The position numbers were made by a program, and so were the translations under genes. From Patescibacteria group bacterium (GTDB lineage: Bacteria; Patescibacteriota; JABMPQ01; JAQVVF01), in NCBI GenBank assembly GCA_028699085.1, contig JAQVVF010000008.1, positions 1 to 48,956 of the forward strand: 48,956 nucleotides of DNA. The letters are read 5' to 3'. The notes under the pieces were generated by a model. That model did not search any database. It saw only the letters and a program-made list of their open reading frames with translations, and had not been told where the DNA came from. This document shows, in pieces, positions 133 to 31,996 of this stretch (position 1 is its first letter; each line of letters begins with the position of its first letter).

Positions 133-1206
133 TTCAATGAAATATGGATCTAACGCTGTATTGGCTTGTAATTGCGCTGAACATTTTTTTGCATTTGCAT
201 ATACTGAACTATCAACTGGTGTAGTTCCATCGCCAGTGCCTTGTGTTGTCCCAGAGCTATTAACGCTTAGTTTAAACGGCGCTTCTATTTTACATTGCAA
301 AACATAAGGATTGATTAACGAAAAAAGGACATAGGCAAAAAGACCAATAAACATTCCAGCAACTGATCCCCAAATTGTTTCTTTTGCAGATGTTATTTTT
401 TCTTGATTGCCGTAAGAAGTAATATAGCCAAATCCGCCCCAGATGACTCCGGCTAAAGCGGCGACACCAATAAAAGAAATTCCTAGATTGAAAGCATTTT
501 TCCAAATTTCACAGGCAGTGCTTCCAGAAATTAATGATGATGGATTAGCTTCATAAGTAGGTGCGGTTGCTGTAGTGTCAATTGCTGGCGTTGTGCCTGT
601 ACTATCTGAAACTGGAATTTGACTCTGCCCCGTTCCAGTGCCTGGAGCATAATTTTTATTTATTATTTCATTTGCTACTCTAACATAGCTTGAATTATCA
701 TGAACATTTCCTGACGTTGCCCACATTGAAGCAGAATCTAAGACATTTACACCCGAACTATTAATGCCTGAATTAATTTGAGTAACGATTTCTGGATGGC
801 CATTTTTGAGACTTGGCACAGTCAGTGCAACAACATTCATGTTTTCTTCTTTTGCCTGAGAATAAATTGATTTTAAATTATTCAGTGTTGTTGCTGATGG
901 AATATTACCATGAGCATCATTGTATCCGCCCATAACCATAACAGTGTTATATCCCTTACCTTTAACATTGCCGTTAAATTTATCATTCAATATTTTATCA
1001 GTGGAAATACCAACCGTTGCAAAGACGCTAAGGTTAGGACATTTTTTCTTTAATTCTCCTCCAATACCAACTGCTAATGAATCGCCAATTATAGCAACGT
1101 TTCCTTGCGGGCAATCAGCAGCAAATACAGGAGACACAAAAAAAAGAATATTTAGAAATATTATAAAGGAATAGATTATTTTTTTTATTTTGGTAATAAT
1201 TATCAA
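130..1206 (-). CDS. Signal peptide + SGNH/GDSL-like hydrolase domain + T4SS pilin-like two-TM domain
   Basis: N-terminal hydrophobic segment; 'VAIIGDSLAVGIGG' (GDSL motif), 'VMGGYNDAHGN', 'NVHDNSSY' (SGNH blocks). C-terminal 'CEIWKNAFNLGISFIGVAALAGVIWGGFGYITSYGNQEKITSAKETIWGSVAGMFIGLFAYVLFSLINP' matches the T4SS pilin/VirB2-like architecture. Confidence 0.7.
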   Translation of the reverse strand: MIIITKIKKIIYSFIIFLNILFFVSPVFAADCPQGNVAIIGDSLAVGIGGELKKKCPNLSVFATVGISTDKILNDKFNGNVKGKGYNTVMVMGGYNDAHGNIPSATTLNNLKSIYSQAKEENMNVVALTVPSLKNGHPEIVTQINSGINSSGVNVLDSASMWATSGNVHDNSSYVRVANEIINKNYAPGTGTGQSQIPVSDSTGTTPAIDTTATAPTYEANPSSLISGSTACEIWKNAFNLGISFIGVAALAGVIWGGFGYITSYGNQEKITSAKETIWGSVAGMFIGLFAYVLFSLINPYVLQCKIEAPFKLSVNSSGTTQGTGDGTTPVDSSVYANAKKCSAQLQANTALDPYFIE

Positions 1207-1325
1207 TTTTCAATAACCAATTTACAATAAATTTTCAATTTTCTAATTTTCAATGGCTCAATCTATTGGTAATTGATTATTGAAAATTATATGTAAATTG
1301 AAAATTATAAATTGGAAATTAAGTT
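1203..1325. repeat. Gene-less AT-rich imperfect palindrome
   Basis: Arms TTTTCAATAACCAATTTACAATAAATTTTCAATTTTC / GAAAATTATATGTAAATTGAAAATTATAAATTGGAAATT around a short loop. Confidence 0.55.
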
Positions 1326-4726: not shown

Positions 4727-5404
4727 TTATAACCAATATGCGCCGTTTAACTTCCATTCTTCTCCAGATTTAGAAAATTCTAATTTTAAAATTTGATATT
4801 TTACTGTTGGCTTATTATTCTGTGCAGTGATTTCTTCTCTCTTTGCTGTAACTATGGCAGTCATTTCTTTTTCGGTTGTATCTGAAATTCCAGAGCTAAT
4901 CGTTTTTGTTGTTACGCCGTAGAATGAAGCTTTTGGATCGATTGGCTTAGCTATTTGTTCGTCAATCCAATTTTTCATTTTGTCTGTAGAATAAGTTTTG
5001 ATTGTTTTCAAATTCTTGTAAGCTTCTTTATCTTTATTGGTAAATGTTCCATAAATTTCTGCAATCTTGGAAGCAAGAGCTAATACTGTCTTTTCTTGGT
5101 CTTCTTCAACTTTAACTTCTCCTTGATTCTCAATTGCATTTAAATTTTCCGTAGTTGCATTCTCAATAGCGTTGGCATTAATTTCAACAGTAGAGTTAGC
5201 ATTAGTATTAGTATTTGCTATCTCGTTAGCATTAATAATTGGAAATTCATTTTCATTTGCATTTATAGCAGTAGTATTGTTTGCAACAACATTTGCGTTC
5301 TGATTAGCTACTTGATTATTTGCTGGAGTTTCTTTTTTACAGCCAAAAGCTGTTGTGGCTAATGCTACTAGAGCTAGCATCAAAATGTTAGATTTTTTAA
5401 ACAT
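4727..5404 (-). CDS. Lipoprotein with Asn-rich linker
   Basis: 'MLALVALATTAFGCKKE' lipobox-like; 'NANVVANNTTAINANENEFPIINANEIANTNTNANS' low-complexity linker; globular C-terminus. Confidence 0.65.
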   Translation of the reverse strand: MFKKSNILMLALVALATTAFGCKKETPANNQVANQNANVVANNTTAINANENEFPIINANEIANTNTNANSTVEINANAIENATTENLNAIENQGEVKVEEDQEKTVLALASKIAEIYGTFTNKDKEAYKNLKTIKTYSTDKMKNWIDEQIAKPIDPKASFYGVTTKTISSGISDTTEKEMTAIVTAKREEITAQNNKPTVKYQILKLEFSKSGEEWKLNGAYWL

Positions 5405-5415
5405 AGTTTTATTTT

Positions 5416-5897
5416 AATTTTCAATTTCTAATTTTTAATTTTTATTAAATTTCTAATGCAATAATTTCTAAACCTTTTTGATTGTGCTTTTGTTATCAAT
5501 AGAACAAGTTATTGATTGAAAAATAAGATGAAGTTCATGCGTTTCTTTCCAAAATGGAACTATTTGTTCTCTTGATTCTGGATGATATTTTGCTAAAATT
5601 CTTAGCCAATATTTTGATTCATTAGCTTCTTTTTTGCATATATATATTTTGTTTCTAAAATCTTTTCTTGAGCTTGAGGCATTGGCTTCATAATAGTTTG
5701 CTCCAATTGAAGTAATAGCTCTTGTTAACTGCGTAATAATATTTTTATTAAAATCGTCTTTTTTTATTTTTTTAATGAATTCTAAAATGTTTTCTGATAA
5801 TCTTGCCGTTCTTTCTTCTAAATCATATTCTTTATTTTTGTTTGAAAATTGGTTCATTATAAATTTAATAGAAATTAAGAATTAGAAATTAGAAATT
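5416..5897. repeat. Inverted-repeat-flanked element carrying four-helix-bundle copy 1
   Basis: Left arm 5423-5452 AATTTCTAATTTTTAATTTTTATTAAATTT vs reverse complement of the right arm (within 5861-5897) AATTTCTAATTCTTAATTTCTATTAAATTT: 28/30 identical. Confidence 0.8.
5468..5857 (-). CDS. Four-helix bundle protein (S23/23S rRNA intervening-sequence protein family), copy 1
   Basis: 'LTRAITSIGANYYEANASSSRKDFRNKIYICKKEANESKYWLRIL' family signature. Confidence 0.85.
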   Translation of the reverse strand: MNQFSNKNKEYDLEERTARLSENILEFIKKIKKDDFNKNIITQLTRAITSIGANYYEANASSSRKDFRNKIYICKKEANESKYWLRILAKYHPESREQIVPFWKETHELHLIFQSITCSIDNKSTIKKV

Positions 5898-5899
5898 CG

Positions 5900-7756
5900 T
5901 TACACGCCTCCTTGCTCTTCTTCATAATTCTTTTTAGCTTGTTCAAGCTCTAATAATTGTTTTGGATCTGTAGTAATTATTTGATCTTCTGAATATGAAG
6001 CAACAATTTTTATGGCAACGTGTTTTGAGCCAGCAAAGAATATTCCCTCACCTACATCAGATTCTAATAACAAATATTTTTCTTCTTCAGTTAGATAAAA
6101 AGTTTTCTTCAATAAATCAATAGATGCTGGAGATTGTTTTAATAATAATTGCAAAGCGGAATTTGTTACAATTGCTTTCCCATAATCTGATGTTAAAAAA
6201 TCGTTAACATCTTGAGAAATTGTGGTTGTACCAAGATAATATTTTCTACCTCTTTTAGCAATTCCATACATGAATCGAGCTGACTCTTCATATTGCATCA
6301 TCCACCAAGCCTCATCAACAACTAAAATTCTTTTCTTCATTTGAGCTCTGACAATATTCCAGATATGATTTAGGATAACATACATTGCAATTGGCCGTAA
6401 TTCGTCTTCAAGATCTCTAATACTGAAAACAACAAAAGGATTATCAATCCGAACATTAGTTGCTTGATTTAAAAGACCAGCAAAAGTCCCTTCTGTATAT
6501 TTTTTTATTCTTGGAACAATTTCTTCTGCGCCTTGCATCCCTTCTAAAATCTCTTGCAAATCTTTCATGGTTGGAACTTCTACTTTTGATAAATCAGAGT
6601 CAGCAGTAATATCTTTTTTGGCGTAAGTTTCAATAATTCCTCGGTCTAACAAAGCATCTTCTTCTTTTGTTAATCTACCAAGCATAATTCTAAGCAAACC
6701 TTTGATGTTGATAACAGCTGATCTAATAATATCTTTTGTTTTCATGCCGGAAATTGCAGAAGGTAAATCAAATGGATTTAATCTATATTCTGATTCTAAA
6801 GACATTTTTAAGAATGTTCCACCGACTGATTCACATAAATATTTATATTCATTTTCTGGATCAATAACAATTACTTCAGTGCCAAACATTAAGGATCTTA
6901 ATATTTCTAATTTAACAGCATAACTTTTTCCTGCACCAGATGTAGCAAAAACAACTGAATTGGCATTTGGCAAAGTAAAACGATCAAATAAAATCAAGCT
7001 ATTGTTGTGTCTATTTATCCCGTAGAGAATGCCTTCATCAGAGGTTAATTCAGAAGAAACAAATGGGAAACTTGTTGATAACGGAGAAGTATTAAAATTG
7101 TTCATAACACCAAGCTCATCAAGACCTAAAGGAGTTGTAGTGTTGAATCCTTGCTCTGCTTGAAAAAAAGCTCTTTTTGAATAAATTAATCTTTGACCTA
7201 ATAAATCCTCGATTTCTTTGGTTGTTTTTTCTAATTTTTTTTCTGAATCTTCATAAATAGTTATATAGAGTGCGAAGTGAAAAAATCTTTCTGTTCCTTG
7301 AATTAAGCGATCACGCAATTCTTCAACATCATTAAGCGCTGTTTCTAACATTGGATCACGAACTTCACCTTTTTCTTGTTTTCCGGCGATAGTTGATTGG
7401 ATCTGTCCAACTTTATTTTTTAATGTTTTCAGAATCTTTTCTGATTCAACTGGCTGAATATACATTGCCATATCAGCCTCAATGTTCATATTAATAACTG
7501 GTGCAAACCAGCCAGTATTAACAAAACGAGGATAAGTGAAAACAAATAACGTTCTAACAAATTTGTCACCAAGTTTAAGATAATTTGGATTAACCTGCAA
7601 AGCGCTAGGTGCAATAATATCGCGAATCGAAACTAGACCCTTTCGATAGATTTCTTCAGCCTTAAGGATTTCTTGCTGTTCTTGTTCGGTCAAATTTTCT
7701 AAATTTTTCTTGCCAACTGGCAAATCTTTATCTTGCATAGTTTTATAAATTTCCAA
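5900..7756 (-). CDS. virB4: VirB4/TraC-family T4SS ATPase
   Basis: Walker A 'FATSGAGKSYAVK', 'VIVIDPENEYKYL', Walker B 'KRILVVDEAWWMM', 'TTTISQDVNDFL'. Confidence 0.92.
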   Translation of the reverse strand: MEIYKTMQDKDLPVGKKNLENLTEQEQQEILKAEEIYRKGLVSIRDIIAPSALQVNPNYLKLGDKFVRTLFVFTYPRFVNTGWFAPVINMNIEADMAMYIQPVESEKILKTLKNKVGQIQSTIAGKQEKGEVRDPMLETALNDVEELRDRLIQGTERFFHFALYITIYEDSEKKLEKTTKEIEDLLGQRLIYSKRAFFQAEQGFNTTTPLGLDELGVMNNFNTSPLSTSFPFVSSELTSDEGILYGINRHNNSLILFDRFTLPNANSVVFATSGAGKSYAVKLEILRSLMFGTEVIVIDPENEYKYLCESVGGTFLKMSLESEYRLNPFDLPSAISGMKTKDIIRSAVINIKGLLRIMLGRLTKEEDALLDRGIIETYAKKDITADSDLSKVEVPTMKDLQEILEGMQGAEEIVPRIKKYTEGTFAGLLNQATNVRIDNPFVVFSIRDLEDELRPIAMYVILNHIWNIVRAQMKKRILVVDEAWWMMQYEESARFMYGIAKRGRKYYLGTTTISQDVNDFLTSDYGKAIVTNSALQLLLKQSPASIDLLKKTFYLTEEEKYLLLESDVGEGIFFAGSKHVAIKIVASYSEDQIITTDPKQLLELEQAKKNYEEEQGGV

Positions 7757-8213
7757 TCCTCAATTATCAATTTTCAATAAATTTTTCAATTTTCAATCAT
7801 CAATTACTTTTTCTATCTAGTGAATTGGCTATTGTTTGAAAAATTAATGTCAATTCTTTGGCTTCTTTCCAAAGTTTTCTAATTTTTTCTTTTTCATTCG
7901 GCAGACAACTGGCTAACATTCTTAACCAATGAAGTGTTTCTTGTGCTTCTTTTTTGCAAATAAATATTTTATTCCTGAAATCTCTAGTAGAGCTAGCATT
8001 ATTTGCTTCACAATAATTTGCGCCAATGCTTGTTCCTGATCTGATTAACTGACTTATTATTGGTTTTGTTATTGAATCCTGAATAATAATTTTGCAATAA
8101 GTAATAATGCTTTCACCAAATTTTGCTGTTCTTTCTTCTAAATTATAATTTTGTTTTGAAAATTGGTCCATTGAATATTTATTGTAAACTGAGAATTGAT
8201 AATTGAAAATTAC
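7757..8213. repeat. Inverted-repeat-flanked element carrying four-helix-bundle copy 2
   Basis: Left CAATTATCAATTTTCA(gap)ATAAAT vs reverse complement of right CAATTATCAATTCTCAGTTTACAATAAAT. Confidence 0.7.
7800..8171 (-). CDS. Four-helix bundle protein (S23/IVP family), copy 2
   Basis: 'LIRSGTSIGANYCEANNASSTRDFRNKIFICKKEAQETLHWLRML'. Confidence 0.85.
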   Translation of the reverse strand: MDQFSKQNYNLEERTAKFGESIITYCKIIIQDSITKPIISQLIRSGTSIGANYCEANNASSTRDFRNKIFICKKEAQETLHWLRMLASCLPNEKEKIRKLWKEAKELTLIFQTIANSLDRKSN

Positions 8214-8215
8214 GC

Positions 8216-8950
8216 TTACGCTTGTTCTATCTTCAGTTTCTCTAATTCCCCCAATATTTCAGTAGTGCTCTCATCTGGATTATACCATGAATAAAATAGC
8301 TCAACTACTTCTTGAGTATTAAGCTGTGCAGACTGGATGCCAATTCCGCCAAGTCCGCTGATTACTGAATTAACCCGTAGTAAAAGCTCTTCTTGCTGTT
8401 TCTGAAATCCGACTTGTTCTTCTTTTATTTTTGAGGCTGGCGAAATAATGCCTTTTATTTTGTCCATTATACCTTCCGTAGCTTCAATTCCTGCTGGTGA
8501 ATATGGAACAACAACATAATAATGACTTGTAGTAATATTTGCTAATTCAACCATTGACTTAATAAATTCAGCATATTCAGCTGTTTGCATTCGCAATAAT
8601 TCATTTTCCTGCATTCTTTCCGCTTCTTTAACTTTTTCTAAGTAACCGCCAATATTTAGTTTTCTAGTTTGAATGACAATTTGGATTGGAAAATTTAATG
8701 AATTCAAAAAATCTTGATAACCAAAAACTTTAGCTTTTTGTTCATCTTCAGACATCAAAGCAAAATTGATGGAAGAACACATAACTACTGCCCGCAATGC
8801 TTTGTTTTTTAAAATAATGATGCCATCTCTGATTCCTGAAACATTCAAAAATTTCTGAGTTGTCTCTTCTTCCTTCTTGACTGCTTTGCTTGAAAGCATT
8901 GTTTCTTCGGGCTTTACTTTTTTTATTTCTTTCTTTTTTTCTTTTGCCAT
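8216..8950 (-). CDS. TraC-like N-terminal-domain protein of the T4SS cluster
   Basis: 'IIILKNKALRAVVMCSSINFALMSEDEQKAKVFGYQDFLNSLNFPIQIVIQTRKLNIGGYL...HYYVVVPYSP' as in VirB4-adjacent genes; lies between prgI-like and virB4. Confidence 0.65.
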   Translation of the reverse strand: MAKEKKKEIKKVKPEETMLSSKAVKKEEETTQKFLNVSGIRDGIIILKNKALRAVVMCSSINFALMSEDEQKAKVFGYQDFLNSLNFPIQIVIQTRKLNIGGYLEKVKEAERMQENELLRMQTAEYAEFIKSMVELANITTSHYYVVVPYSPAGIEATEGIMDKIKGIISPASKIKEEQVGFQKQQEELLLRVNSVISGLGGIGIQSAQLNTQEVVELFYSWYNPDESTTEILGELEKLKIEQA

Positions 8951-9441
8951 AATAGAAAATCCTAAGCACTAATATCTAAATTCTAAATAAATTCAAATTT
9001 CCAAAATACAAATTATCAAAATTATTTATTTGTTTTATTTTCTTTTTCAATAATTGATCCGAATATTTTTGTTAATTCTAATGCTTCTTGTATCAATGAA
9101 CTCTTTTCTTGCTCTAATTTTTTATTATTATCTACAAAAATTAAGTTTAACCAGTATCGACTTTCCTTAGCCTCTTTTCGGCAAATTTTAATTCTATGAT
9201 AGAAATCTTTTTTACTTAATGCCTCATTTGCTTCAATATAATTAGCTCCGACAGATCCTGATGACCTAATAACTTGTTTGCCATCTTCTATATTCGAAAT
9301 TGTTCTGGGAATTATCTTAACAAAATCCCTAGTACGTTTTGCAAAATTTAGTGTTCTTGGCTCTAAATCATAGTAGCTTGTTTTGGTCATTTTCTTTTAA
9401 GTTTTGAGTTTGTTTAGAATTTAGAGTTTAGGATTTAGAGT
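8951..9441. repeat. Inverted-repeat-flanked element carrying four-helix-bundle copy 3
   Basis: Left AAATCCTAAGCACTAATATCTAAATTCTAAATAAATTCAAA vs reverse complement of right AAATCCTAAACTCTAAATTCTAAACAAACTCAAA. Confidence 0.75.
9022..9390 (-). CDS. Four-helix bundle protein (S23/IVP family), copy 3 (divergent)
   Basis: 'VIRSSGSVGANYIEANEALSKKDFYHRIKICRKEAKESRYWLNLI'. Confidence 0.85.
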   Translation of the reverse strand: MTKTSYYDLEPRTLNFAKRTRDFVKIIPRTISNIEDGKQVIRSSGSVGANYIEANEALSKKDFYHRIKICRKEAKESRYWLNLIFVDNNKKLEQEKSSLIQEALELTKIFGSIIEKENKTNK

Positions 9442-9864
9442 TTTTTCATTCATGACCGTCTTGAAGTCTAATTGTCTCGCTAATCGATGAATTGAACTCG
9501 GTGTATATTTTTTTTCGCCAATTGTGATTTTTTCTGGACCTGATTTTTTATTTGTAAGATCATAAGCTTTTACTCTAGGAGCTCTAGCACTTTTATGCCA
9601 AACTAATACTTTTGGACCAAGCATAAATTTAAAAACTGCAGACAAATAATTAGTTAACGGGCGACCGTATGGTTTGACAAAAGCCAATGGCACAACTATC
9701 ATGCCGACAATGACTGCTAAAAAAATGAAAAGACTTAGATCAACAAAAGACCAAGCAATTAACAGAAATATGCCTCCGCCAAGCAAAAAGAAAAACTGCT
9801 TCAAAGTAAGAGGACCAATAATTTGATCTTCTATTTCAACAAATTGTGGAATGGGATATTGCAT
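9421..9864 (-). CDS. PrgI-like T4SS inner-membrane protein
   Basis: 'MQYPIPQFVEIEDQIIGPLTLKQFFFLLGGGIFLL...VKPYGRPLTNYL'. Start placed at MQYPIPQ rather than the upstream MLRIFI. Confidence 0.8.
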   Translation of the reverse strand: MQYPIPQFVEIEDQIIGPLTLKQFFFLLGGGIFLLIAWSFVDLSLFIFLAVIVGMIVVPLAFVKPYGRPLTNYLSAVFKFMLGPKVLVWHKSARAPRVKAYDLTNKKSGPEKITIGEKKYTPSSIHRLARQLDFKTVMNEKTLNPKL

Positions 9865-10000
9865 TATAAAAATTCTAAGCACTAAATACTAAATTCTAAA
9901 CAAATTCAAAGCACAAATTTTTAAATATTCAAAACAAGTTTTGATTTTTTAATTTTGGTAATTTGGATTTGTTTAGGATTTAGTATTTAGGATTTTGTAC
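9865..10000. repeat. Gene-less AT-rich imperfect palindrome, same arm family as copy 3
   Basis: AAATTCTAAGCACTAAATACTAAATTCTAAACAAATTCAAA ... GGATTTGTTTAGGATTTAGTATTTAGGATTTT. Confidence 0.75.
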
Positions 10001-10002
10001 TT

Positions 10003-11415
10003 TTAGATCAACTTGCTGATGCTCTTGACAGCAATATATTCATCTTCTGTCAAAAATTCTGTTCCTTGTTTTTTTCTATCTTCTCCTATTTGGCTAATTG
10101 ATTTTTTTTCTGAAGAACTTTGATTTTCCATTGCCTCGTATAATTTAAATAACGGACTTTTCATAAAATTTTCTTGAGCTATTTTTCTTTCATCATGCGT
10201 CTTGGCAACTTCTCTAATTTTTGTCAATAAAGCTTGAGCTGCTTCTTTTGCAGTTGCGCCTAATTTTTTAAAATCAACAATACTGATATTTTGAATTTTA
10301 TTGATTTCTTTGGAAACTGGTTTTGTGGGTGTCAAAACTTTGTGTTCTTTATGAAAAACTTTTGCTGGCGGGTTTGGCATTTCTTCAACTTTTGGTTTTG
10401 TAATTTCTCTGACAACTTGTTTTTCTGGTAATGCTTTGATAACTTTTGCTTCTGATTCTATTTTTTTAGCCTTTTTTGGTTTACCGATATTTTTTAAAGA
10501 AGCAATAAATTTGTTTGCTGGCTCTTCTGCTTCAAGCTTTTTAATATCAATAGCTCCTTTCATTGCCTGTTCTGCCATTTTTTTGTTTTCTGCTAATATT
10601 TTTTCTCGTTTTTCTGTTTTGGGGGTAGGAAATGGAATAGAACGAACAGTGCCGGCTGATTCATTGACAGATTTGTTAACTTTTTGTAATTCTTTGGTAG
10701 TAAAATCTTCGACTGCGACAGGTTTTTTTAATTTAATATCATACATTTCAATGGGATAGCTGCCTAATCCTCCAACGTCAGTTACTTTGAGATGCAATTT
10801 ATCGTAAAACTGTAAAAGTATTTTAACTTGCTTTTTTTCTGCCTCATTTAATTTTCTAATATTTTGAGAATGAATAAAATAGCTGTTTCTTTCAACTAGA
10901 GAATGAATACCTGGTTCTGATGTATATTCATAATCCTTAATCCAATTTTGAATAGTTGGCTGAACTTCTGTACTGCCAAGAATAATGTTTTTTGTACCAA
11001 TTTTTTGCTGATTCTTTTTTATAGATGCTAAAATCTTGGTAAGAAAATCATCGCGAAAAGGCAATTGAATTAAATTGACAGCAGACCTTATAGATTTCTC
11101 TAGATCAATTTTTCTAACTAAAGCATCTTTAGTGTGCTTTTGAAAGAGATCTAAAATATCATTGTTGTCATAAAGAAAATCCAAGACATTGAATTTTAAA
11201 TAAATCATTATATGATGATATTTCTGATACATTTCGGGATTTTCTTCCTGAAAACTTGGATTTTTTTCTAAAGCATCGTGAATCGATAAATAAATCTGAA
11301 AAGCTTTTTTTGCATCATCTCCAGAAAAGAAAAAATTGGCACATTGCTGTATTTGCTTCAAAATTTTTGTATAAGTCTGATAATCAACTAATTTTTGTTT
11401 TGTCAATTTTTCCAT
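10003..11415 (-). CDS. Hypothetical protein in the T4SS cluster (helical, Lys-rich)
   Basis: 470-aa ORF, no domain recognised; packed between VirB6-like and PrgI-like genes. Confidence 0.6.
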   Translation of the reverse strand: MEKLTKQKLVDYQTYTKILKQIQQCANFFFSGDDAKKAFQIYLSIHDALEKNPSFQEENPEMYQKYHHIMIYLKFNVLDFLYDNNDILDLFQKHTKDALVRKIDLEKSIRSAVNLIQLPFRDDFLTKILASIKKNQQKIGTKNIILGSTEVQPTIQNWIKDYEYTSEPGIHSLVERNSYFIHSQNIRKLNEAEKKQVKILLQFYDKLHLKVTDVGGLGSYPIEMYDIKLKKPVAVEDFTTKELQKVNKSVNESAGTVRSIPFPTPKTEKREKILAENKKMAEQAMKGAIDIKKLEAEEPANKFIASLKNIGKPKKAKKIESEAKVIKALPEKQVVREITKPKVEEMPNPPAKVFHKEHKVLTPTKPVSKEINKIQNISIVDFKKLGATAKEAAQALLTKIREVAKTHDERKIAQENFMKSPLFKLYEAMENQSSSEKKSISQIGEDRKKQGTEFLTEDEYIAVKSISKLI

Positions 11416-19651: not shown

Positions 19652-20716
19652 TTATTCAGCATCTCGCAATAGCTTGGCTGCTTGTTCTGGCTCGACTGTT
19701 GAAATTTCGATGCCTGTTGACAATTCGAATCCAGCCCAAATTGTGACTTTCGGTAAAATCTCAATGTGCCAGTGATAATGATCATGATTTTGTTCATCAG
19801 CAGGAGCAGTATGAATAAAAAAGTTAAATGGCGGATCATTCAAGGCCTGATAAATTTTGTTTAAAGAAAATTTTAATGCTTTTGCTAAACTAATTTTTTC
19901 ATTTTCTTCAATTCTTTCAAAATATGGCGAATGAAGTTTTGGATAAATTCTAACTTCAAAAGCAACAACAGATGTAAACGGACAGACAGCAATAAAATTT
20001 TCATTTTCAAAGATAACTCTGGTTTTTTCTTTTCTTTCCCATTCTATAATTTCACAATGCGGACATTTGCCATGTTCTTCAAAATATTTTCTTGAACCAT
20101 GCAAAGAATTACGAATATCTTTTGGAATTACTGGAATCGCAAAAAGCTGGGAATGAGGATGAGCAATCGAGGCACCAGCTTCTGGTCGATGATTATGAAT
20201 TATGGAAATATAATCAATGTGAGGCTCTTTTGCTAAAGCAAGATAACGAGATTGAAAAACATCAATTATTTCTTTAACTCTCTCATCTGGCAATTGGCCA
20301 TAAGTTTTGTTATGAGAGGCTGGAATGATTACTTCATGATAACCATAGCCTGGTAAAACTCTGTAAGGACCAACTAATTTTTCCTTAAAATCCACGTCCT
20401 TTACAAAGGCTGGAAATTTATTTTGAATATCAATTATACTATAAGGCTCTTTTTTCCAAGTCGGCAAAGGTGCTCCTTCTTTTTTTAATTCATCAAGATA
20501 TGGATCTTTTGAAGTTAGAGGGTGAATTAATGAGACTTGAACACCTTGTTGCTTGTCAAAATTGCAAAAGGGACACTCTTCTTTTGGTTGCTCTAAAACA
20601 GCTGCTTTTAGACCTTCGTAAGATTTTGGTCTTTTCGATCTGCCCGATGCAATGACTACCCAGTTTTTGGAGACAATGTCTTGGCGTAATTCTGATGGAT
20701 GTTGATTATTCGGCAT
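19652..20716 (-). CDS. galT: Galactose-1-phosphate uridylyltransferase
   Basis: 'SELRQDIVSKNWVVIASGRSKRP', 'CPFC', 'IIHNHRPEAGASIAHPHSQLFAIP', 'HYHWHIEILP'. Confidence 0.92.
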   Translation of the reverse strand: MPNNQHPSELRQDIVSKNWVVIASGRSKRPKSYEGLKAAVLEQPKEECPFCNFDKQQGVQVSLIHPLTSKDPYLDELKKEGAPLPTWKKEPYSIIDIQNKFPAFVKDVDFKEKLVGPYRVLPGYGYHEVIIPASHNKTYGQLPDERVKEIIDVFQSRYLALAKEPHIDYISIIHNHRPEAGASIAHPHSQLFAIPVIPKDIRNSLHGSRKYFEEHGKCPHCEIIEWERKEKTRVIFENENFIAVCPFTSVVAFEVRIYPKLHSPYFERIEENEKISLAKALKFSLNKIYQALNDPPFNFFIHTAPADEQNHDHYHWHIEILPKVTIWAGFELSTGIEISTVEPEQAAKLLRDAE

Positions 20717-20810
20717 AATTTTAAATTTTTAATTTTTATTAAATTTTTAGTGACAAATTTTAAAACCTTAGCATTATTTTAACTTATTTTGAAGGAAAGA
20801 ACAATTTTAA

Positions 20811-20858: not shown

Positions 20859-23800
20859 TTATAGCTGAAACGCATCCTTATCTGCAATTACAAACTTTGC
20901 TTTAGAAAGAGAAGTAAAATGATAGATTGGGGCAAAGTTTTGGTTGCTGCCTTTCTTAGTTTTAGCAATCGATGTTGGTCTTAGATAGTAGTTCCTAATT
21001 TTGAATTTTAAATTGTTTTTTTGTAAGTTTTGATAGACTGGATATGGACCTTGCCAATTGCCTTTTCGATCTTTGATAAAAAGACGGAGATTCTTTTCTT
21101 TAAGCTTGTTTTTCTTTAGCTTTTTTGTTTTGTAATGGAAAGTGATTTTGAAAGTAGTCTTGCGGATATTCCTGATGTTTGATTTTAGAACAAGATAAGC
21201 AGGATAGAGTTTTTTCTTGATGAAATGGCGGGAAGAATATTTCTTGTTTTTACGAATTAAAGTTAGATAAAGACCTTTAGAATTAGATGGCTTTTCATAG
21301 AAATAGACTTTGATGTCTTGTCCTTGATCTTGATATGTTCTTAACAAATTAGTTTGCTCTAAATTTAATGTTTGATTAAAATCAGTTGCCATAGAATCTA
21401 AAGCTGTAAAAGTCATTGCTTCAGACTGGTTAATCATTGTATTGCCAGCTAGATCTTTTGCATTTCTGACTGAAATATATCCAGAAGTGTTGGTATAGGA
21501 GCTGTCTAAAACAATATTTCCAGTCCATGTCTTTCCTGAATATGATGTTTGGACTACTCCATAGTTTTCAGTTCTTAAACCTGTAATCTCAACAACTGGC
21601 AATGCAGTTGTTAACATGTTTTCTGAAAAGACAATTGTTACTGTGACTAAACCAGCTTGAGCTGGATTTGGAGTATAGGAAATTGAAGAAATAGTTGGTA
21701 GAATGCTTTCAACTTGAAATGTCGAAGCAGTTAGATCAGGCAACATTGTATTTCCAGCAATATCTTTAGCGCCTGTTACAGAGATCGTTGCTATTGCATC
21801 TTCATTGTCAGAATTTAGAGTAAAAGTGCCATACCAAATAGCAGAGCCATAAATATTCTGGCTGACTGTGTAAGAACTAGCAAGACCATTGATCACTACT
21901 GTTGGCGTAACAGTTGTATCCATGGCTTGCGAAAAGTAAAGAATGACTCCTACTGTTCCAGGGATAGCTGGATTAGGATTAACAATGACTGAAGTAAGAT
22001 ATGGAGCAATAGTATTAACTTCAAAAGTACCAGCTGAAATATCAGCTAGCATTGTATTGCCAGCTAAATCTTTTGCGCCTGCAACAGAGATTACAGCAGT
22101 TGTGATTTCATTATCATCAAGTAAATTAAAAGTGCCAGTCCACAAATTACCATAGCTAGTTTGAGCTACAAGATATGGACTGCTTGTCAAACCTGTGACT
22201 GTAACTGTTGGTGAAACAGTTGTATCCATTGTTTCCGAGAATACCAAACTAACTGTTACATTTCCAGGCTTAGCTGGATCAGGATTCGCTATCGCTGATG
22301 TGACTGTTGGTGCTGTTTCATCAAGAATGATTGTACTAGAAATGCCAGTGCTTTCTGAAAGAAGCTTGTCTCTGTATTTGACATAGACTGTCTTTGTCCC
22401 ATCGCCAGAAGATAATGTAAAGTTCTTTGATGTTGCATAAGTTTCCCAACTAGCGCCAACAAATGTCGGATCTTCTGAAACCATCATCTGATATGCATCA
22501 GACGAGGCTGATAAAGCTAAAGTAACAGCAGTTGTATTTGTATAACTTGCTCCGGAATTAATTGCAATTGACGTGGAAGTCGGGGCGGAGCCGAAAATAT
22601 GGAAAAGAAAATAGTAAGTGTTATAAGGATTAGGATTATTACTATCGTAACCGATTATATGTGCAGTATCGTCACTAGCTAAAGCCAGACTAGGCTTGTA
22701 ACCAAATAAAGAGTGATCACTTAAAGATTCAACAATCCATAAGTTACTTTTATAACCAAATTTCAAGAATTTGGTAACTTGGTCAAAATATGAAATCATA
22801 GGAATATTTTGACTGTTCAGTTTCAAAGTAACAGAATCACCATAACTTGCATCAGTATCAACGAATTCAGTATGCCAACCATTGATATCTTTGTAAGCAT
22901 ATTTTACTTTAAAATTAGTAGCATCATAATATGCAATATGTGGATAATCAAAGCTATCCAAATCAAGAGAAGCATAAGTGCCGACTGAACCACCAGAATC
23001 AACAGTTTCTGTATGCCAGCCAGTACCATCTTTGTAGGCATAAATAAGATCGGCAGTAGAAGAACCATAATAACTAACACAAGGATAATTAGCGGAATTA
23101 ATTGCAATTGAAGTTTGACTGCCAGCGCCAATATTTTCACTATGCCAACCAGTACCATCTTTGTAAGCATGTTTAACTTGACCTGAATTATAATAACTAA
23201 TATGCGGATAGTTAGATTGATCTATCACAATCGAGTTATAAGTTCCACCGGAAGTATCAACTGTTTCTAAATGCCAACCCGATATATCTTGGTAAGCATA
23301 TTCAAGATCATCATTTACTCCATCATAATAGCTGATATGGCTATAATTATTTTGATCAAGAGCAATGCTGGAATAGGGGGAATTATTTATACTAGTGCTT
23401 TTATCAACAATAGCTTCATTCCAACCATACTCATTTTCATAAGTATAATTCAAACGATAATTAGTAGGAGAGCTAATATGAACTAGATTATTACTATCAA
23501 CAGCAATCGCAGACGTCTGACCAGGATACTGATATCGATAATCATCTAGATTCCAAACTGTAGTATAATAAGCACGTATTAAATTATTGTAGTTATATGT
23601 AATTTGAGGCAAGCCAGTTGAAGTTAGATCAATTGAAGTCGGATAAGAATAAGAAGCATTAGTGCTAACTGTCGCATAATTCCAAGCTCCAGCATCTTTG
23701 TAAGTATATTTAAGATCATAATTCGTCACATCACTATAACTAATATGGGGACGATTAGAACTATCTGTAACAATTGAAGTAGACCGACCGATATCTGCTG

Positions 23801-24671
23801 AACTTGAATCAACTGTTTCTACTGCCCAAGCTCCACCACTAACTTTGAAAGCATATTTGAGATCTTTATTGGTATTATCATAATAACTGATATGGGGCTG
23901 ATTTAATGAATCAACAGCAATCGAGTTATATTGCCCAACATCACCTCCAAAATCAACAGTTTCTTCATGCCAACCAGAACCATTTTTGTAAAAATAAAAA
24001 AGATCATATCCTGCCGGATAGTTATAATAGCTGATATGAGGATAATTAGAAGAATCTAAAGCTATGGAAAGATAAATACCAAAATTAAGAAATGTATTTG
24101 ATTTAATAGTTTCATAATGCCAACCAGAAACATCTTTATATACATATCTTATATTTTGAGTAGTATAATTATTATCAATATAACAAATATGAGGATAACC
24201 ATTATTATCAATGGCAATAATAGACGAATTGATATATGCTCTATTATCAACAACTTCATAATGCCAACCTGAAGCATCTTGATAAGCATAGCGAAGATAA
24301 TAACTAGTTGTATCTATATAACTAATATGCGCGTAGCCATTACTGTCAAGACCTAAAGAAAAAGTTTGAGAAGTTCCATTATAATGAGCATAGCTAGCAT
24401 CAGGTTCAAGAACTTGATAATAAAATTGACCATTAGCGTCTTGATATCCATACTTTATTCTTTTTAGAAAACCATCATAAAAAGCAATACTATAACGGTC
24501 ATTACTTTTATTAATTTTTAAAAAAGCCATATAAGAAGAAAATTGATTAGTATAATCAATTTTCTCCGTAGTCAGCGCCATCGCATCATTAGAAGGCAAA
24601 CCAAAAAAGACAGCAAATAAGCTTATGCTGATAAGACAAAAAAATGAAAAAATTAATATTTTTTTAATCAT
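20859..24671 (-). CDS. Large secreted repeat protein: ~12 propeller-like repeats, Ig-like domains, basic C-terminus
   Basis: Signal peptide; repeated 'SI(A/V)IDSxNYPHISYYDxxxxDLKYAYKDxxGWHxETVD'; three 'xxPxPAxPGxVxVxLxFSExMDTTVxPTVxxxGL' Ig-like units; Lys-rich C-terminal ~150 aa. Confidence 0.8.
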   Translation of the reverse strand: MIKKILIFSFFCLISISLFAVFFGLPSNDAMALTTEKIDYTNQFSSYMAFLKINKSNDRYSIAFYDGFLKRIKYGYQDANGQFYYQVLEPDASYAHYNGTSQTFSLGLDSNGYAHISYIDTTSYYLRYAYQDASGWHYEVVDNRAYINSSIIAIDNNGYPHICYIDNNYTTQNIRYVYKDVSGWHYETIKSNTFLNFGIYLSIALDSSNYPHISYYNYPAGYDLFYFYKNGSGWHEETVDFGGDVGQYNSIAVDSLNQPHISYYDNTNKDLKYAFKVSGGAWAVETVDSSSADIGRSTSIVTDSSNRPHISYSDVTNYDLKYTYKDAGAWNYATVSTNASYSYPTSIDLTSTGLPQITYNYNNLIRAYYTTVWNLDDYRYQYPGQTSAIAVDSNNLVHISSPTNYRLNYTYENEYGWNEAIVDKSTSINNSPYSSIALDQNNYSHISYYDGVNDDLEYAYQDISGWHLETVDTSGGTYNSIVIDQSNYPHISYYNSGQVKHAYKDGTGWHSENIGAGSQTSIAINSANYPCVSYYGSSTADLIYAYKDGTGWHTETVDSGGSVGTYASLDLDSFDYPHIAYYDATNFKVKYAYKDINGWHTEFVDTDASYGDSVTLKLNSQNIPMISYFDQVTKFLKFGYKSNLWIVESLSDHSLFGYKPSLALASDDTAHIIGYDSNNPNPYNTYYFLFHIFGSAPTSTSIAINSGASYTNTTAVTLALSASSDAYQMMVSEDPTFVGASWETYATSKNFTLSSGDGTKTVYVKYRDKLLSESTGISSTIILDETAPTVTSAIANPDPAKPGNVTVSLVFSETMDTTVSPTVTVTGLTSSPYLVAQTSYGNLWTGTFNLLDDNEITTAVISVAGAKDLAGNTMLADISAGTFEVNTIAPYLTSVIVNPNPAIPGTVGVILYFSQAMDTTVTPTVVINGLASSYTVSQNIYGSAIWYGTFTLNSDNEDAIATISVTGAKDIAGNTMLPDLTASTFQVESILPTISSISYTPNPAQAGLVTVTIVFSENMLTTALPVVEITGLRTENYGVVQTSYSGKTWTGNIVLDSSYTNTSGYISVRNAKDLAGNTMINQSEAMTFTALDSMATDFNQTLNLEQTNLLRTYQDQGQDIKVYFYEKPSNSKGLYLTLIRKNKKYSSRHFIKKKLYPAYLVLKSNIRNIRKTTFKITFHYKTKKLKKNKLKEKNLRLFIKDRKGNWQGPYPVYQNLQKNNLKFKIRNYYLRPTSIAKTKKGSNQNFAPIYHFTSLSKAKFVIADKDAFQL
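22600..24560 (-). repeat. Intragenic degenerate tandem repeats (~45-50 aa units) in the 1270-aa protein
   Basis: Recurrent 'NYPHISYYD...DLKYAYKDGTGWHTETVDSGG' units. Confidence 0.8.
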
Positions 24672-24726: not shown

Positions 24727-24761
24727 AGAAGAAGAAGAAGAAGAAGAAGAAGAAGAAGAAA
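24727..24761. repeat. Trinucleotide microsatellite (GAA)n/(TTC)n
   Basis: Uninterrupted gaagaagaag... run of about 11 units. Confidence 0.95.
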
Positions 24762-24837: not shown

Positions 24838-25629
24838 TTAAATCTCAATTTCTTCATTAATTCTGGAAATTGTATTTCCTTTTTCTTTGTCTAAATTAAT
24901 GACAACTGCATTAACAATGCAGTTTCCTGTTTCATCAACTTCCCATCGATGAGGCATTTGAGTCAAAAATTGTTCGATAACTTTTTCTTTTTGAACTCCC
25001 AAAACAGAATCTTTGATTCCAACCATGCCGACATCTGAAATATAGGCTGTGCCTTTTTGTAAAACTTCTTCATCAGAAGTTTGAACATGGGTGTGTGTTC
25101 CTACAACTGCTGAGACTTTTCCATCTAAATAAAAACCCAAAGCTTTAACTTCTGAAGTTGCTTCTTTGTGCAAATCAACAATGCTGAAGTCAATGTGTTC
25201 ATTCTTTGTTTCTTCTAAAATTTCATCAATAGTTTTGAATGGACAAACAAGATCTTCTTTCATAAAAACTCGGCCTAAAACATTAGTAATCAAAACTTTT
25301 TTGGTACGAACTTGTTTGATCAAATATCTTTTGCCTGGATTTTCTTTTGGATAATTTGCTGGTCTGACAATTGGCAAATTTTTGTCTTGATCTAACATTT
25401 CGACACCTTCTGTTTTGTCATAGATATGATTACCTGAAGTTAAAACATCAATTCCAGCATTTAAAATTTCTTGGACTGTATTTTTGGTAATACCAAGACC
25501 ATGGGCAAGATTTTCGCCATTAGCAATAATTAAATCTGGATTATATTTGGCTTTCAATTTTGGCAATATCTTTTTGATGGCGTTGCGACCTGCTTTGCCA
25601 ACAATATCACCGAAAAATAAAATTATCAT
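24838..25629 (-). CDS. ymdB: YmdB-family metallophosphoesterase
   Basis: 'MIILFFGDIVGKAGRNAIKKILPKLKAKYNPDLIIANGENLAHGLGIT', 'TSGNHIYD', 'VVGTHTHVQTSDE'. The upstream 45 codons of the ORF lie in an intergenic repeat and were removed. Confidence 0.9.
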   Translation of the reverse strand: MIILFFGDIVGKAGRNAIKKILPKLKAKYNPDLIIANGENLAHGLGITKNTVQEILNAGIDVLTSGNHIYDKTEGVEMLDQDKNLPIVRPANYPKENPGKRYLIKQVRTKKVLITNVLGRVFMKEDLVCPFKTIDEILEETKNEHIDFSIVDLHKEATSEVKALGFYLDGKVSAVVGTHTHVQTSDEEVLQKGTAYISDVGMVGIKDSVLGVQKEKVIEQFLTQMPHRWEVDETGNCIVNAVVINLDKEKGNTISRINEEIEI

Positions 25630-25747
25630 ATTATTAAATTTCCAATTACCAATGATCAATTTACAATCAATTTCCAATGAAAATTTTGAAAATTGGTTCA
25701 TTGAAAATTTAATGAAAATTAAAAATTGTAAATTGAAAATTATTTTA
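25630..25747. repeat. Deletion derivative of a four-helix-bundle element between rny and ymdB
   Basis: On the minus strand: TAATTTTCATTAAATTTTCA-ATGAACCAATTTTCAAAA (MNQFSK), compared with copy 1 TAATTTCTATTAAATTTATA-ATGAACCAATTTTCAAAC (MNQFSN), then a 3' arm. Confidence 0.75.
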
Positions 25748-27280
25748 TTATCTTGCAAAATCAACTGCTCTTGTTTCTCTAATGACGTTTACTTTGATTT
25801 CGCCAGGATATCTTAATTCTTTTTCAATCTTGTCAGCAATACCTTGCGCTAATTTTTTAGCTTCAAGATCATCAACTTGTTCAGGAGTAACAAAGACGCG
25901 AACTTCACGACCAGCCTGAATAGCATAAGCTTTATCAGCACCTTCAAAACTCAAAGCAATATTTTCAAGATCTGTTAAACGTTTAATATAATTTTCGTAT
26001 GTGTCTTTACGAGCGCCTGGTCTTGCTCCAGAAATTCCATCAGCTGCTTTAACAATTACTGCTTCAACTGTATGAGGTTCAACATCTTCATGGTGACATT
26101 CGACAGCATGAATGATCTCTTCAGAAACACCAAATTTTTTCAAAATATTTCTGCCAATTTCAATATGCGTTCCTTCAATTTCATGATCAACTGCTTTACC
26201 AATATCGTGTAATAGACCAGCTTTTTTTGCGATATTGACATCAGCTCCTAATTCTTCAGCAATGATTTTTGCAAAGTTAGCAACTTCGATTGAGTGTCTT
26301 AAAACATTTTGTCCATAAGATGATCTGAATCTTAATCTGCCTAAAACTTGAACTAATTTTGAATCTAAATCAGCGATACCTAATTCATAAGCTGCTTGCT
26401 CGCCAGCTTCCTTGATCTCATGAGCGATTTCTTTTTTGACTGTAGTAACTGTTTCTTCAATTTTGGCTGGATGAATTCTACCATCTTGAATTAGACGTTC
26501 TAATGTTCTTTTTGCAACATGACGTCTGATCGGATTAAAACCAGAGATAACAATTGCTTCTGGAGTATCATCAACAACTATTTCAATACCACATAATTCT
26601 TCGATTCTTTTAATGTTTCTACCTTCACGGCCGATGATTCTTCCTTTCATTTCATCAGAAGGTAATGCAACAGTTGTAGCTGTTGATTCTGAAGCTTGCG
26701 GACGAGCGTAACGTTCAATTGCCTGTGATATAATATTTTTTGCTTTTGTATTTGCTTCATCTTTGGCACGATTCTCTGCTTTTTTAACAATACCCAAAAC
26801 TCTTTCTTGCTGATCTTTTTCAACCATTTCCAACAAAACTTCTTTTGCTTTTTCTCTCGACAAAGAGGCAACTTTTTCTAATGTTGCCATTTGCTTTTTT
26901 CTGATCTCGCCTAATTCTTGAGTTTTTCTTTGGATTGTACGATTTCCTTTTTCTAATTGTTCTTCTTTTTGAGAAATTGAATCTAATTTCTGATTTAAAA
27001 TTCCTTCTCTTTGGGCTAATTTTCCTTGAAAATCTAAAAGCTTAGCTCTTCCTTCTCGCTGTTCTTTTTCAGCGTTTTCTTTGATTTCTAGAGCTTGAGT
27101 CTTTGTTTCTAATAAGATTTCTTTTTGTTTTGCTTTTGCTGTTTCAACTAAGGCTTGAGTTTTTGCTTCGATTGAGTCTTGTCTGCTTTTGGCAATTACT
27201 TTTCTCAAAATGTAGCCAAGTGTTAATCCTAAGATTAAAGCGATAATCGAAGATACGACAATTAATAATAAGTTATCCAT
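25748..27280 (-). CDS. rny: Ribonuclease Y
   Basis: N-terminal TM + coiled coil, KH 'GRIIGREGRNIKRIEELCGIEIVVDDTPEAIVISGFNPIRR', HD 'LLHDIGKAVDHE'. Confidence 0.95.
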   Translation of the reverse strand: MDNLLLIVVSSIIALILGLTLGYILRKVIAKSRQDSIEAKTQALVETAKAKQKEILLETKTQALEIKENAEKEQREGRAKLLDFQGKLAQREGILNQKLDSISQKEEQLEKGNRTIQRKTQELGEIRKKQMATLEKVASLSREKAKEVLLEMVEKDQQERVLGIVKKAENRAKDEANTKAKNIISQAIERYARPQASESTATTVALPSDEMKGRIIGREGRNIKRIEELCGIEIVVDDTPEAIVISGFNPIRRHVAKRTLERLIQDGRIHPAKIEETVTTVKKEIAHEIKEAGEQAAYELGIADLDSKLVQVLGRLRFRSSYGQNVLRHSIEVANFAKIIAEELGADVNIAKKAGLLHDIGKAVDHEIEGTHIEIGRNILKKFGVSEEIIHAVECHHEDVEPHTVEAVIVKAADGISGARPGARKDTYENYIKRLTDLENIALSFEGADKAYAIQAGREVRVFVTPEQVDDLEAKKLAQGIADKIEKELRYPGEIKVNVIRETRAVDFAR

Positions 27281-29510: not shown

Positions 29511-29645
29511 AATTTTCAATTTCTAATTTTTAATTTTTATTAAATTTCTAATGCATTAATTTTCAAACCTGTTCGCCGTCGACGAGTTTAGAAATTGAAG
29601 CAATAGGAATTTAATAGAAATTAGAAATTTAAAATTAGAAATTTT
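29511..29645. repeat. Deletion derivative of the copy-1 type element between cdaA and cdaR
   Basis: 29511-29555 is identical over 45 nt to 5416-5460, and similarity continues into the position of the 4HB 3' coding end (AAACCTG vs AAACCTT); right arm TTTAATAGAAATTAGAAATTT. Confidence 0.8.
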
Positions 29646-30556: not shown

Positions 30557-31537
30557 TTAAATTATTATCTTAACCTCATTATTTTGCTTAATCAATCTAC
30601 CGGGTAATGTAAATCCCGCTGCCTTCTTATGTCCTCCTCCTCCCAAACTTCGAGCTAGTTTTGAGACATCAATATGATCATGCAAGGTTCGAAAGGAACC
30701 TTTTATTTCGCCTTTTTCATTTTCTGATAAAACTAATGATGCTTTGACATCTGGAATTGAATTTAGAAAATTAGCAATGCCTTCAAGATCTTCTGATTTA
30801 GCATTACATTCTTGTAAATCTTTTTTGGTTATAACGGCATAAACAATGCCGAAAGTCTTATTCTTTTTTATTTCTGATAATATTTTACCCCAAAGTCTAA
30901 GAGTTGACAAAGATTTATCTTGCAAAGTATTTTTGGTAATCTCTTTTAAATTTGCACCAGAAGCTAAAAGATCTGACGTAGTTTTTAGAGTATGATGAGA
31001 AGTATTCGGATTTTTGAAACTGTCAGTATCTCCAAAGATTCCATTTAATAAACTTGTTGAAATATTTTTGTCTAAAGCAACATTCATTTTTACTAAAAAG
31101 TTGTGAACAATTTCTGAAGTTGAAGAAGCATTAGCTTCAATAATATTCAATCTGCCAAAATGCGGATTATCATGATGATGATCAATATTAATGATTGGTG
31201 CTTTAAGATCGCTGAACTTTAAGAAATTATGCAAACCAGTTTGTTCAAAGCTCCCACAATCTAAAGTAATTAATAATTTATAATTAATAATATTATCTAA
31301 AATCTGATCAATTTTTTTTATTTTGTTTGCATTTTTGAGGAAAAAAAACTTGGTGGGAATTTCATCCTGACAAGCATATTTAATTTTTTTATTTTGTTTT
31401 TCTAAGATGTCTCCCAAAGCAAGAGCTGATCCGATAGTATCAGCATCTGGTTTGCGATGACAAATAATCAGGATATTTTCTGATTTTTTTATTAAATAAA
31501 GCGCTCGATTTATTTGGATATCGATGAAGTTGAACAT
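30557..31537 (-). CDS. DHH/DHHA1 phosphoesterase (NrnA/DhhP-like)
   Basis: 'ICHRKPDADTIGSALALG', 'LLITLDCG', 'INIDHHHDNPHFG', C-terminal 'LARSLGGGGHKKAAGFTLPG'. Confidence 0.88.
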   Translation of the reverse strand: MFNFIDIQINRALYLIKKSENILIICHRKPDADTIGSALALGDILEKQNKKIKYACQDEIPTKFFFLKNANKIKKIDQILDNIINYKLLITLDCGSFEQTGLHNFLKFSDLKAPIINIDHHHDNPHFGRLNIIEANASSTSEIVHNFLVKMNVALDKNISTSLLNGIFGDTDSFKNPNTSHHTLKTTSDLLASGANLKEITKNTLQDKSLSTLRLWGKILSEIKKNKTFGIVYAVITKKDLQECNAKSEDLEGIANFLNSIPDVKASLVLSENEKGEIKGSFRTLHDHIDVSKLARSLGGGGHKKAAGFTLPGRLIKQNNEVKIII

Positions 31538-31539
31538 GT

Positions 31540-31683
31540 GGACAAAATTCTAAATCCTAAATTCTAAATCCTAAACAAATCCAAAAACCAAATTACCAAA
31601 TGCTCAGAATTTCTTCGTCTGATTTTGAACATTTATATTTTTGATTTTAAATTTGTTTAGGATTTAGGGTTTTGTGCTTAGAA
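31540..31683. repeat. Gene-less AT-rich imperfect palindrome between rbfA and nrnA-like
   Basis: AAATTCTAAATCCTAAATTCTAAATCCTAAACAAATCC ... AAATTTGTTTAGGATTTAGGGTTTTGTGCTTAGAATTT; the right-hand gene end lies inside the arm. Confidence 0.75.
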
Positions 31684-31996
31684 TTTCCTCGATACGGGCT
31701 GCGTGCTCTTCTGAATGATCTAAGACAAATCTAATTTTTGGAACAAAACGCATTACTAATTTTCTATTCAAAGCTTTTTGGAGATGATAAACATTATAAT
31801 TAAGCTTTTTGATAACGCCAACTGCTTTGTTTTTTGGGATCACAGAAATATACACGTTTGTGTGTTTAATGTCAACAGAAGTATCCACTTTTGAAACAGT
31901 TACGAAAGCGTCTATTGGAAGCTCGATTTCTTCTTTAATAATTGAACCTAATTCTTGCTGAATTAGGCTATTTAATTTTTCTAAACGATGAGACAT
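31664..31996 (-). CDS. rbfA: Ribosome-binding factor A
   Basis: 'MSHRLEKLNSLIQQELGSIIKEEI...VTVSKVDTSVDIKHTNVYISV...VPKIRFVLDHSEEHAARIEEIL'. Start moved to MSHRLEK; the upstream ORF extension is repeat-derived. Confidence 0.85.
   Translation of the reverse strand: MSHRLEKLNSLIQQELGSIIKEEIELPIDAFVTVSKVDTSVDIKHTNVYISVIPKNKAVGVIKKLNYNVYHLQKALNRKLVMRFVPKIRFVLDHSEEHAARIEEILSTKP

Follow-up and report, generated by a model that had tools for sequence, protein, structure and literature searches.

Between cdaA and cdaR of this Patescibacteria genome lies a complete palindrome of 133 bases, and the question it raises is what it is and how it came to stand there. The window, the whole stretch of 48,956 nt that was analysed, also holds three four-helix-bundle (4HB) genes in cassettes, and the preliminary description had related the palindrome to one of these cassettes, a kinship that was borne out. 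The reading preferred here, at a probability of about two in three, is that a mobile palindromic element of the same kind as the rRNA intervening sequences (IVS/IVP) has left here a gene-less, non-autonomous copy of itself. Its nature as a palindromic element, its insertion and its association with 4HB genes are well supported; the 4HB protein is the presumed mover.

The palindrome at the cdaA-cdaR junction

Positions 29511–29555 equal positions 5416–5460 over 45 nt, as first described; the window has no longer exact repeat, no 46-mer occurring in it twice, and a rough estimate from base composition puts the chance expectation of a 45-nt match in the window at ∼1e-16, which is negligible. Genome-wide, the 45-mer has two exact copies, both in the window, and a third with three mismatches (G000:C21:14634–14678, minus strand), and the reversed 45-mer, used as a control pattern, had no match genome-wide. 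Over a 63-nt stretch including the 45-mer, the palindrome and the cassette at 5416–5897 are 94% identical. The GC-rich loop and the opposite arm also follow as reported, with arms of ∼58 nt each, and the predicted RNA fold reaches −31.5 kcal/mol (z = −5.6 versus shuffles).

Two parts of the preliminary description have to be revised. The palindrome had been called a relic of one cassette end, opposite to the end left in the rny-ymdB gap; however, both arms are present here and the rny-ymdB element is complete too, so that the one-ended reading does not fit. Exact identity with the cassette is limited to one arm, and because the opposite arm is only 79% identical to the matching cassette arm over 58 nt, the complete element was not copied very recently. 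The suggestion of recent spread or gene conversion may thus still apply to the 45-nt arm, which could reflect conversion of one arm or uneven decay of the two, but not to the entire element.

From the cdaA stop to the cdaR start, five relatives of the same order (L014–L018) and one of the same phylum (L019) have 0–5 nt or an overlap, the nearest relative (G001) having been left out of this comparison because a different gene follows its cdaA. In this genome, the gap is ∼141 nt and is filled by the palindrome. Since the site is empty in the relatives, the palindrome is an insertion; its sequence has other copies in the genome, and the gap sequence is not conserved among the relatives. A terminator, RNase III site or translational spacer selected in place by the host would agree with the stable fold, the co-directional genes on both sides and the presence of RNase III; yet the hairpin is missing from this junction in the relatives, and the same sequence family occupies unrelated junctions in the window and in the rest of the genome, which makes such an origin improbable. 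A host role may have been adopted after insertion, and most likely the palindrome has no host job beyond separating or cutting the two cistrons.

Cassettes and gene-less hairpins of the window and genome

All three 4HB genes of the window belong to PF05635/TIGR02436, and each lies between inverted arms (Table 1). The cognate gene-less hairpins of the second cassette are at C21:18308, C18:129776 and C4:1197. The outer arm of the type-2 cassette forms the final codons and stop of a PrgI-like gene ending at 9421, and the type-2 4HB protein has relatives in many phyla at 58–72% identity. The six gene-less palindromes of the window fill successive junctions of two gene runs, 4727–11415 and cdaR-cdaA-(30557–31537)-rbfA. 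The one between rny and ymdB retains a 4HB-like start, ATGAACCAATTTTC (MNQFSKF), in frame with ymdB (ORF 24838–25764; region 25629–25764), so that YmdB could carry an N-terminal extension of ∼25 residues. Separately, an (AAG)n tract at 24727–24760 lies immediately upstream of a large secreted-looking gene (20859–24671).

Table 1. Cassettes, gene-less palindromes and isolated arm in the window (4HB, four-helix bundle; scores are inverted-repeat scores).
Feature	Positions	Strand	Details
Gene-less palindrome	1197–1321	.	score 34; fold z −5.7
Type-1 cassette	5416–5897	−	arms 5416–5473 and 5840–5897 around 4HB gene; score 33
4HB (IVP) gene, 129 aa	5468–5857	−	TIGR02436 1.8e-19, PF05635 2.7e-15; start codon inside arm
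Second 4HB cassette	7748–8211	−	gene 7800–8171; arms of AATTATCAATTTTCAATAAATTT type
Type-2 4HB cassette	8956–9445	−	gene 9022–9390; arms AAAATCCTAAGCAC...TAAATAAATTC
Gene-less type-2 palindrome	9868–10005	.	score 52; fold z −7.0
Isolated type-1-like arm	20716–20752	.	partner arm not found; repeat families D7 and I17
Gene-less palindrome between rny and ymdB	25635–25742	−	score 42.5; fold z −4.8
Gene-less type-1 palindrome, complete	29511–29643	−	between cdaA (end 29644) and cdaR (start 29502); score 51
Left arm of the preceding	∼29511–29568		
GC-rich loop of the preceding	∼29569–29586		
Right arm of the preceding	29586–29643		
Gene-less type-2 palindrome upstream of cdaA	30406–30556	.	score 30; fold z −3.5
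Gene-less type-2 palindrome at rbfA start	31544–31688	.	score 38; fold z −8.3

In the 410 kb sampled of the 1.17-Mb genome, 46 palindromes with period-7 arms were found, 43 of them gene-less, and extrapolation suggests a number of the order of 130 for the whole genome. Period-7 arms characterize 39 of the 49 long palindromes of the sampled genome, and their heptad units are degenerate, not perfect. Co-directional genes flank 35 of the 46, and one lies inside an ORF, the background of gaps in the same 410 kb being 306 co-directional, 35 convergent and 35 divergent. Eight 4HB paralogues are encoded, and all six cassettes tested match gene-less hairpins elsewhere in the genome with both arms (best scores 25–50 versus 15–22 for reversed arms); the two arms of each cassette point to largely the same hairpins. 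The 23S rRNA of this genome covers the full model in 2,898 nt and has no insertion.

Some further features of the hairpins were recorded. Seven heptad palindromes of differing subtypes lie within 5 kb at G000:C21:13608–18436, and the RNase III gene (G000:C27:25185–25841) has one on each side (25043–25157 and 25853–25999). Of the 43 gene-less palindromes, 8 have the motif CGACG/CGTCG within their central 40 nt, versus 0.85% of random 40-mers.

Heptad arms and insertions in other bacteria

At least 580 relatives of the 4HB proteins of this genome emerged from a scan of one genome per species across 85,488 species; the best 80 are 58–72% identical and spread over many phyla. In the flanks of these 80 loci, lag-7 identity was 0.45/0.48 versus 0.26 further out, and lag 7 was the best lag in 53/80 and 59/80 flanks versus 13/148 control flanks; inverted repeats scoring ≥20 were present at 35 of 79 4HB loci versus 1 of 69 control flanks. 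By eye, the units read, for example, AAATTCG AAATCCG AATATCG, often followed by AAACAAATTCAAATG, in which ATG is the 4HB start, and a single element tends to keep one base (T, G, C or A) at the seventh position throughout. In a second sample, of 4HB loci from CPR relatives, ∼15 of 25 were flanked on either side by clear 7-nt arms and two had 8-nt arms; no clear heptad arms were seen at seven 4HB genes (L146, L149, L153, L161, L165, L168, and L268). The flanks of one 4HB gene of G020 (L162) have an 8-nt rather than a 7-nt period. Inverted heptad arrays, such as (AATTCAA)n, (AGTAAAA)n, (AATCCCC)n and (ATTAGTG)n, also accompany plasmid 4HB loci of Nostoc, Anabaena, Planktothrix, Bernardetia, Treponema, and Aulosira. 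The type-1 4HB protein had no relatives among the viral contigs searched, and 50,697 phage records contained one weak 4HB match.

The matched 4HB frames were intact in 77/80, and with a median dN/dS of 0.17 over 128 unsaturated pairs, the genes are, judged by their sequences, under purifying selection. Well-supported clades of the 4HB tree combine different phyla, for instance Chloroflexota with Pseudomonadota and Thermodesulfobacteriota, bin contamination being possible. Among solved structures, 2RLD is the closest relative, with five chains in its entry, and solved 4HB relatives are pentamers.

Whole insertions of ∼480–530 nt carrying gene and arms exist. A gene on plasmids of Nostoc flagelliforme is split by 524 nt of inserted sequence with an 11-bp repeat, TGGAGTTGGGT, on either side, of which the empty homologues have one copy; in Aulosira, the insertion lies at a gene junction with ∼25–30 nt replaced; and where Nostoc and Anabaena have an insertion between cas1 and cas2, some cas1 sequence has apparently been lost. 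Across 97 elements (51 + 46), flanking direct repeats were not in excess over swapped flanks. The repeat in one case, the loss in Aulosira and the lack of excess together indicate that there is no fixed target-site duplication. The cas1-cas2 element is antisense (L135 and L136, plasmids of Nostoc sp. TCL26-01 and Anabaena cylindrica), and cas1 and cas2 are adjacent in other Nostoc plasmids (L210, L211). On two further Nostoc plasmids (L281, L282), a 4HB element with AATTCGC arms apparently interrupts a DNA cytosine methyltransferase gene. For the Nostoc punctiforme loci L137 and L279, L276 and L277 were considered as empty sites and rejected, the flanks not being collinear; a comparison of L281 and L282 with L286–L288 was set aside for want of a clear right flank.

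Period-7 palindromes numbered 0 in 315 kb from ten genomes without PF05635 versus 21 in 400 kb from ten genomes with at least five such genes, counts that come from short stretches (40 kb per 4HB-rich genome), uncorrected for relatedness, in groups that differ in GC content. Heptad palindromes were thus present in 5/10 of the 4HB-rich genomes, the other five having none in the 40 kb sampled, versus 0/10 of those without 4HB (one-sided Fisher 0.016); given the short stretches and the uncorrected relatedness, this co-occurrence is support and not proof. An AT-rich composition could aid chance palindromes, yet AT-rich genomes without 4HB (34–38% GC) gave no heptad palindromes in the sampled stretches.

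These data also bear on simple-sequence expansion, in which slippage during replication of AT-rich spacers would generate the 7-nt units, with the palindromes as immobile by-products. Many genomes are enriched in heptameric repeats, for which slippage has been put forward (PMC4692102, PMC4679880); slippage, however, yields direct and not inverted arrays, whereas the 4HB gene sits between inverted ones, and it accounts poorly for an exact 45 nt shared by unlinked arms, for insertions that comprise gene and arms, and for the empty result in genomes without 4HB. We therefore hold this origin to be very improbable.

The link to rRNA comes from a genome of the same phylum (G035), in which heptad hairpins interrupt the 16S gene (L270:14686–14796) and, at three positions, the 23S gene (L271:2144, 2499, and 2967). 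All four sites are empty in the congener G012, the extents of the rRNA genes having been confirmed by Rfam, and the palindromes are thereby tied to IVSs. The G035 16S gene has an additional insertion of 870 nt (L270:15976–16847), absent in G012, with an apparent homing-endonuclease-type ORF, and this is unrelated to the heptad hairpins.

Candidate movers, known systems and meaning

Another enzyme, a Y1/RAYT transposase or a reverse transcriptase, might move the hairpins, with the 4HB gene as a passenger trapped in some loops. This genome has three Y1_Tnp genes and one RVT_1 gene, the REP elements of RAYTs are likewise intergenic palindromes with the cognate gene elsewhere in the genome, and PF05635 resembles Avd of diversity-generating retroelements, being of the same protein superfamily (PDB 4DWL versus 2GSC, as cited in PMC10053308). 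Weak PF05635 matches also adjoin RT genes in five genomes (G045, G048, G053, G057, and G059), where they are probably Avd. The distribution of the enzymes argues the other way: three 4HB genes each are found in G033 and G050, which lack both Y1 and RVT_1, G029 has 11 4HB genes and heptad palindromes without Y1, G031 has several 4HB genes without Y1, and G012 and G035 lack RVT_1. Moreover, the Y1 genes of this genome adjoin GC-rich palindromes (G000:C21:6386–9298, including C21:6795 and C21:9221; C27:56506–57165), which are a REP/RAYT-like family separate from the heptad hairpins, and arm subtype goes with the 4HB cassette. Unlike REP elements, the heptad palindromes apparently need no Y1 and have AT-rich arms of 45–65 nt with period 7, and unlike diversity-generating retroelements, the cassettes lack a template and a variable repeat, and in the window a reverse transcriptase is found neither in nor near them. 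A separate enzymatic mover is accordingly unlikely, though it is the alternative we take most seriously. Among 60 relatives, neither enzyme tracks the 4HB genes, which lends no support to either as a required partner.

Under the preferred reading of a gene-less copy of an IVS-like mobile element, the autonomous form would be a stem of two arms of 45–65 nt, built of degenerate 7-nt units, with a single gene in the loop, the PF05635/TIGR02436 four-helix-bundle gene, whose start codon lies at the arm or just within it. The 4HB protein would bind heptads of its own subtype and, acting in trans with host enzymes, would drive the copying or insertion of any palindrome with matching arms. Insertions would survive chiefly at operon junctions and at the tips of rRNA helices; the hairpin transcript would there be cut by RNase III or do no harm.

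The closest parallel is the 23S rRNA IVS of Coxiella burnetii, which, according to PMC4990558, has a variable number of heptameric repeats with its S23p/IVP gene. Like the cognate cassettes, it comprises a terminal inverted-repeat stem with a PF05635 ORF in the loop, and sporadic distribution, horizontal transfer, gene-less forms and insertion into rRNA helices (here, the G035 hairpins) are known of IVSs as well. Unlike an rRNA IVS, the palindrome studied lies between cdaA and cdaR and not in an rRNA helix, and the elements of this genome occur in dozens of copies, mostly outside rRNA at gene junctions; the excision of IVSs by RNase III without ligation is here represented by the RNase III gene alone. 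What goes beyond the IVS is that the 7-nt architecture is widespread and that gene-less copies pair with cassettes by subtype. MITEs are similar in being short gene-less palindromes whose ends match those of a gene-carrying element, but the parent element here has no transposase, PF05635 being the only gene in the cassettes, and no target-site duplication of fixed length.

Intergenic tandem 7-nt units recall the heptanucleotide repeats of Cyanobacteria, Bacteroidota and Gammaproteobacteria, including STRR in Calothrix and Nostoc, GGGAATC in Xanthomonas, with many inverted pairs, and TAACTGA in Beggiatoaceae (PMC4692102 and PMC4679880). Those repeats are described there without a 4HB gene and often have perfect units. 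A genome-wide link of 4HB genes to bacterial heptanucleotide repeats is absent from the accessible parts of PMC4692102, PMC4679880, PMC4990558, and PMC11270868; most subscription papers lie outside the searchable literature, and priority is not established.

More broadly, the odds seem to us evenly balanced that mobile palindromes with heptanucleotide arms form one class throughout the bacteria, with a small four-helix-bundle protein as sole gene and no known transposase or reverse transcriptase in use; rRNA intervening sequences, cyanobacterial heptanucleotide repeats and CPR intergenic hairpins would be members or remnants of this class. PF05635/TIGR02436 is a large protein family for which we know of no function, named after a curiosity of rRNA genes, and the heptanucleotide repeats described from several bacterial groups lack an assigned agent. 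Should the 4HB gene and the heptad repeats belong together, both would gain a testable explanation, and the minimal mobile element would consist of one protein of ∼120 residues and a hairpin. Such a class, if real, would explain many AT-rich spacers of CPR operons and might indicate DNA movement outside the known enzyme classes.
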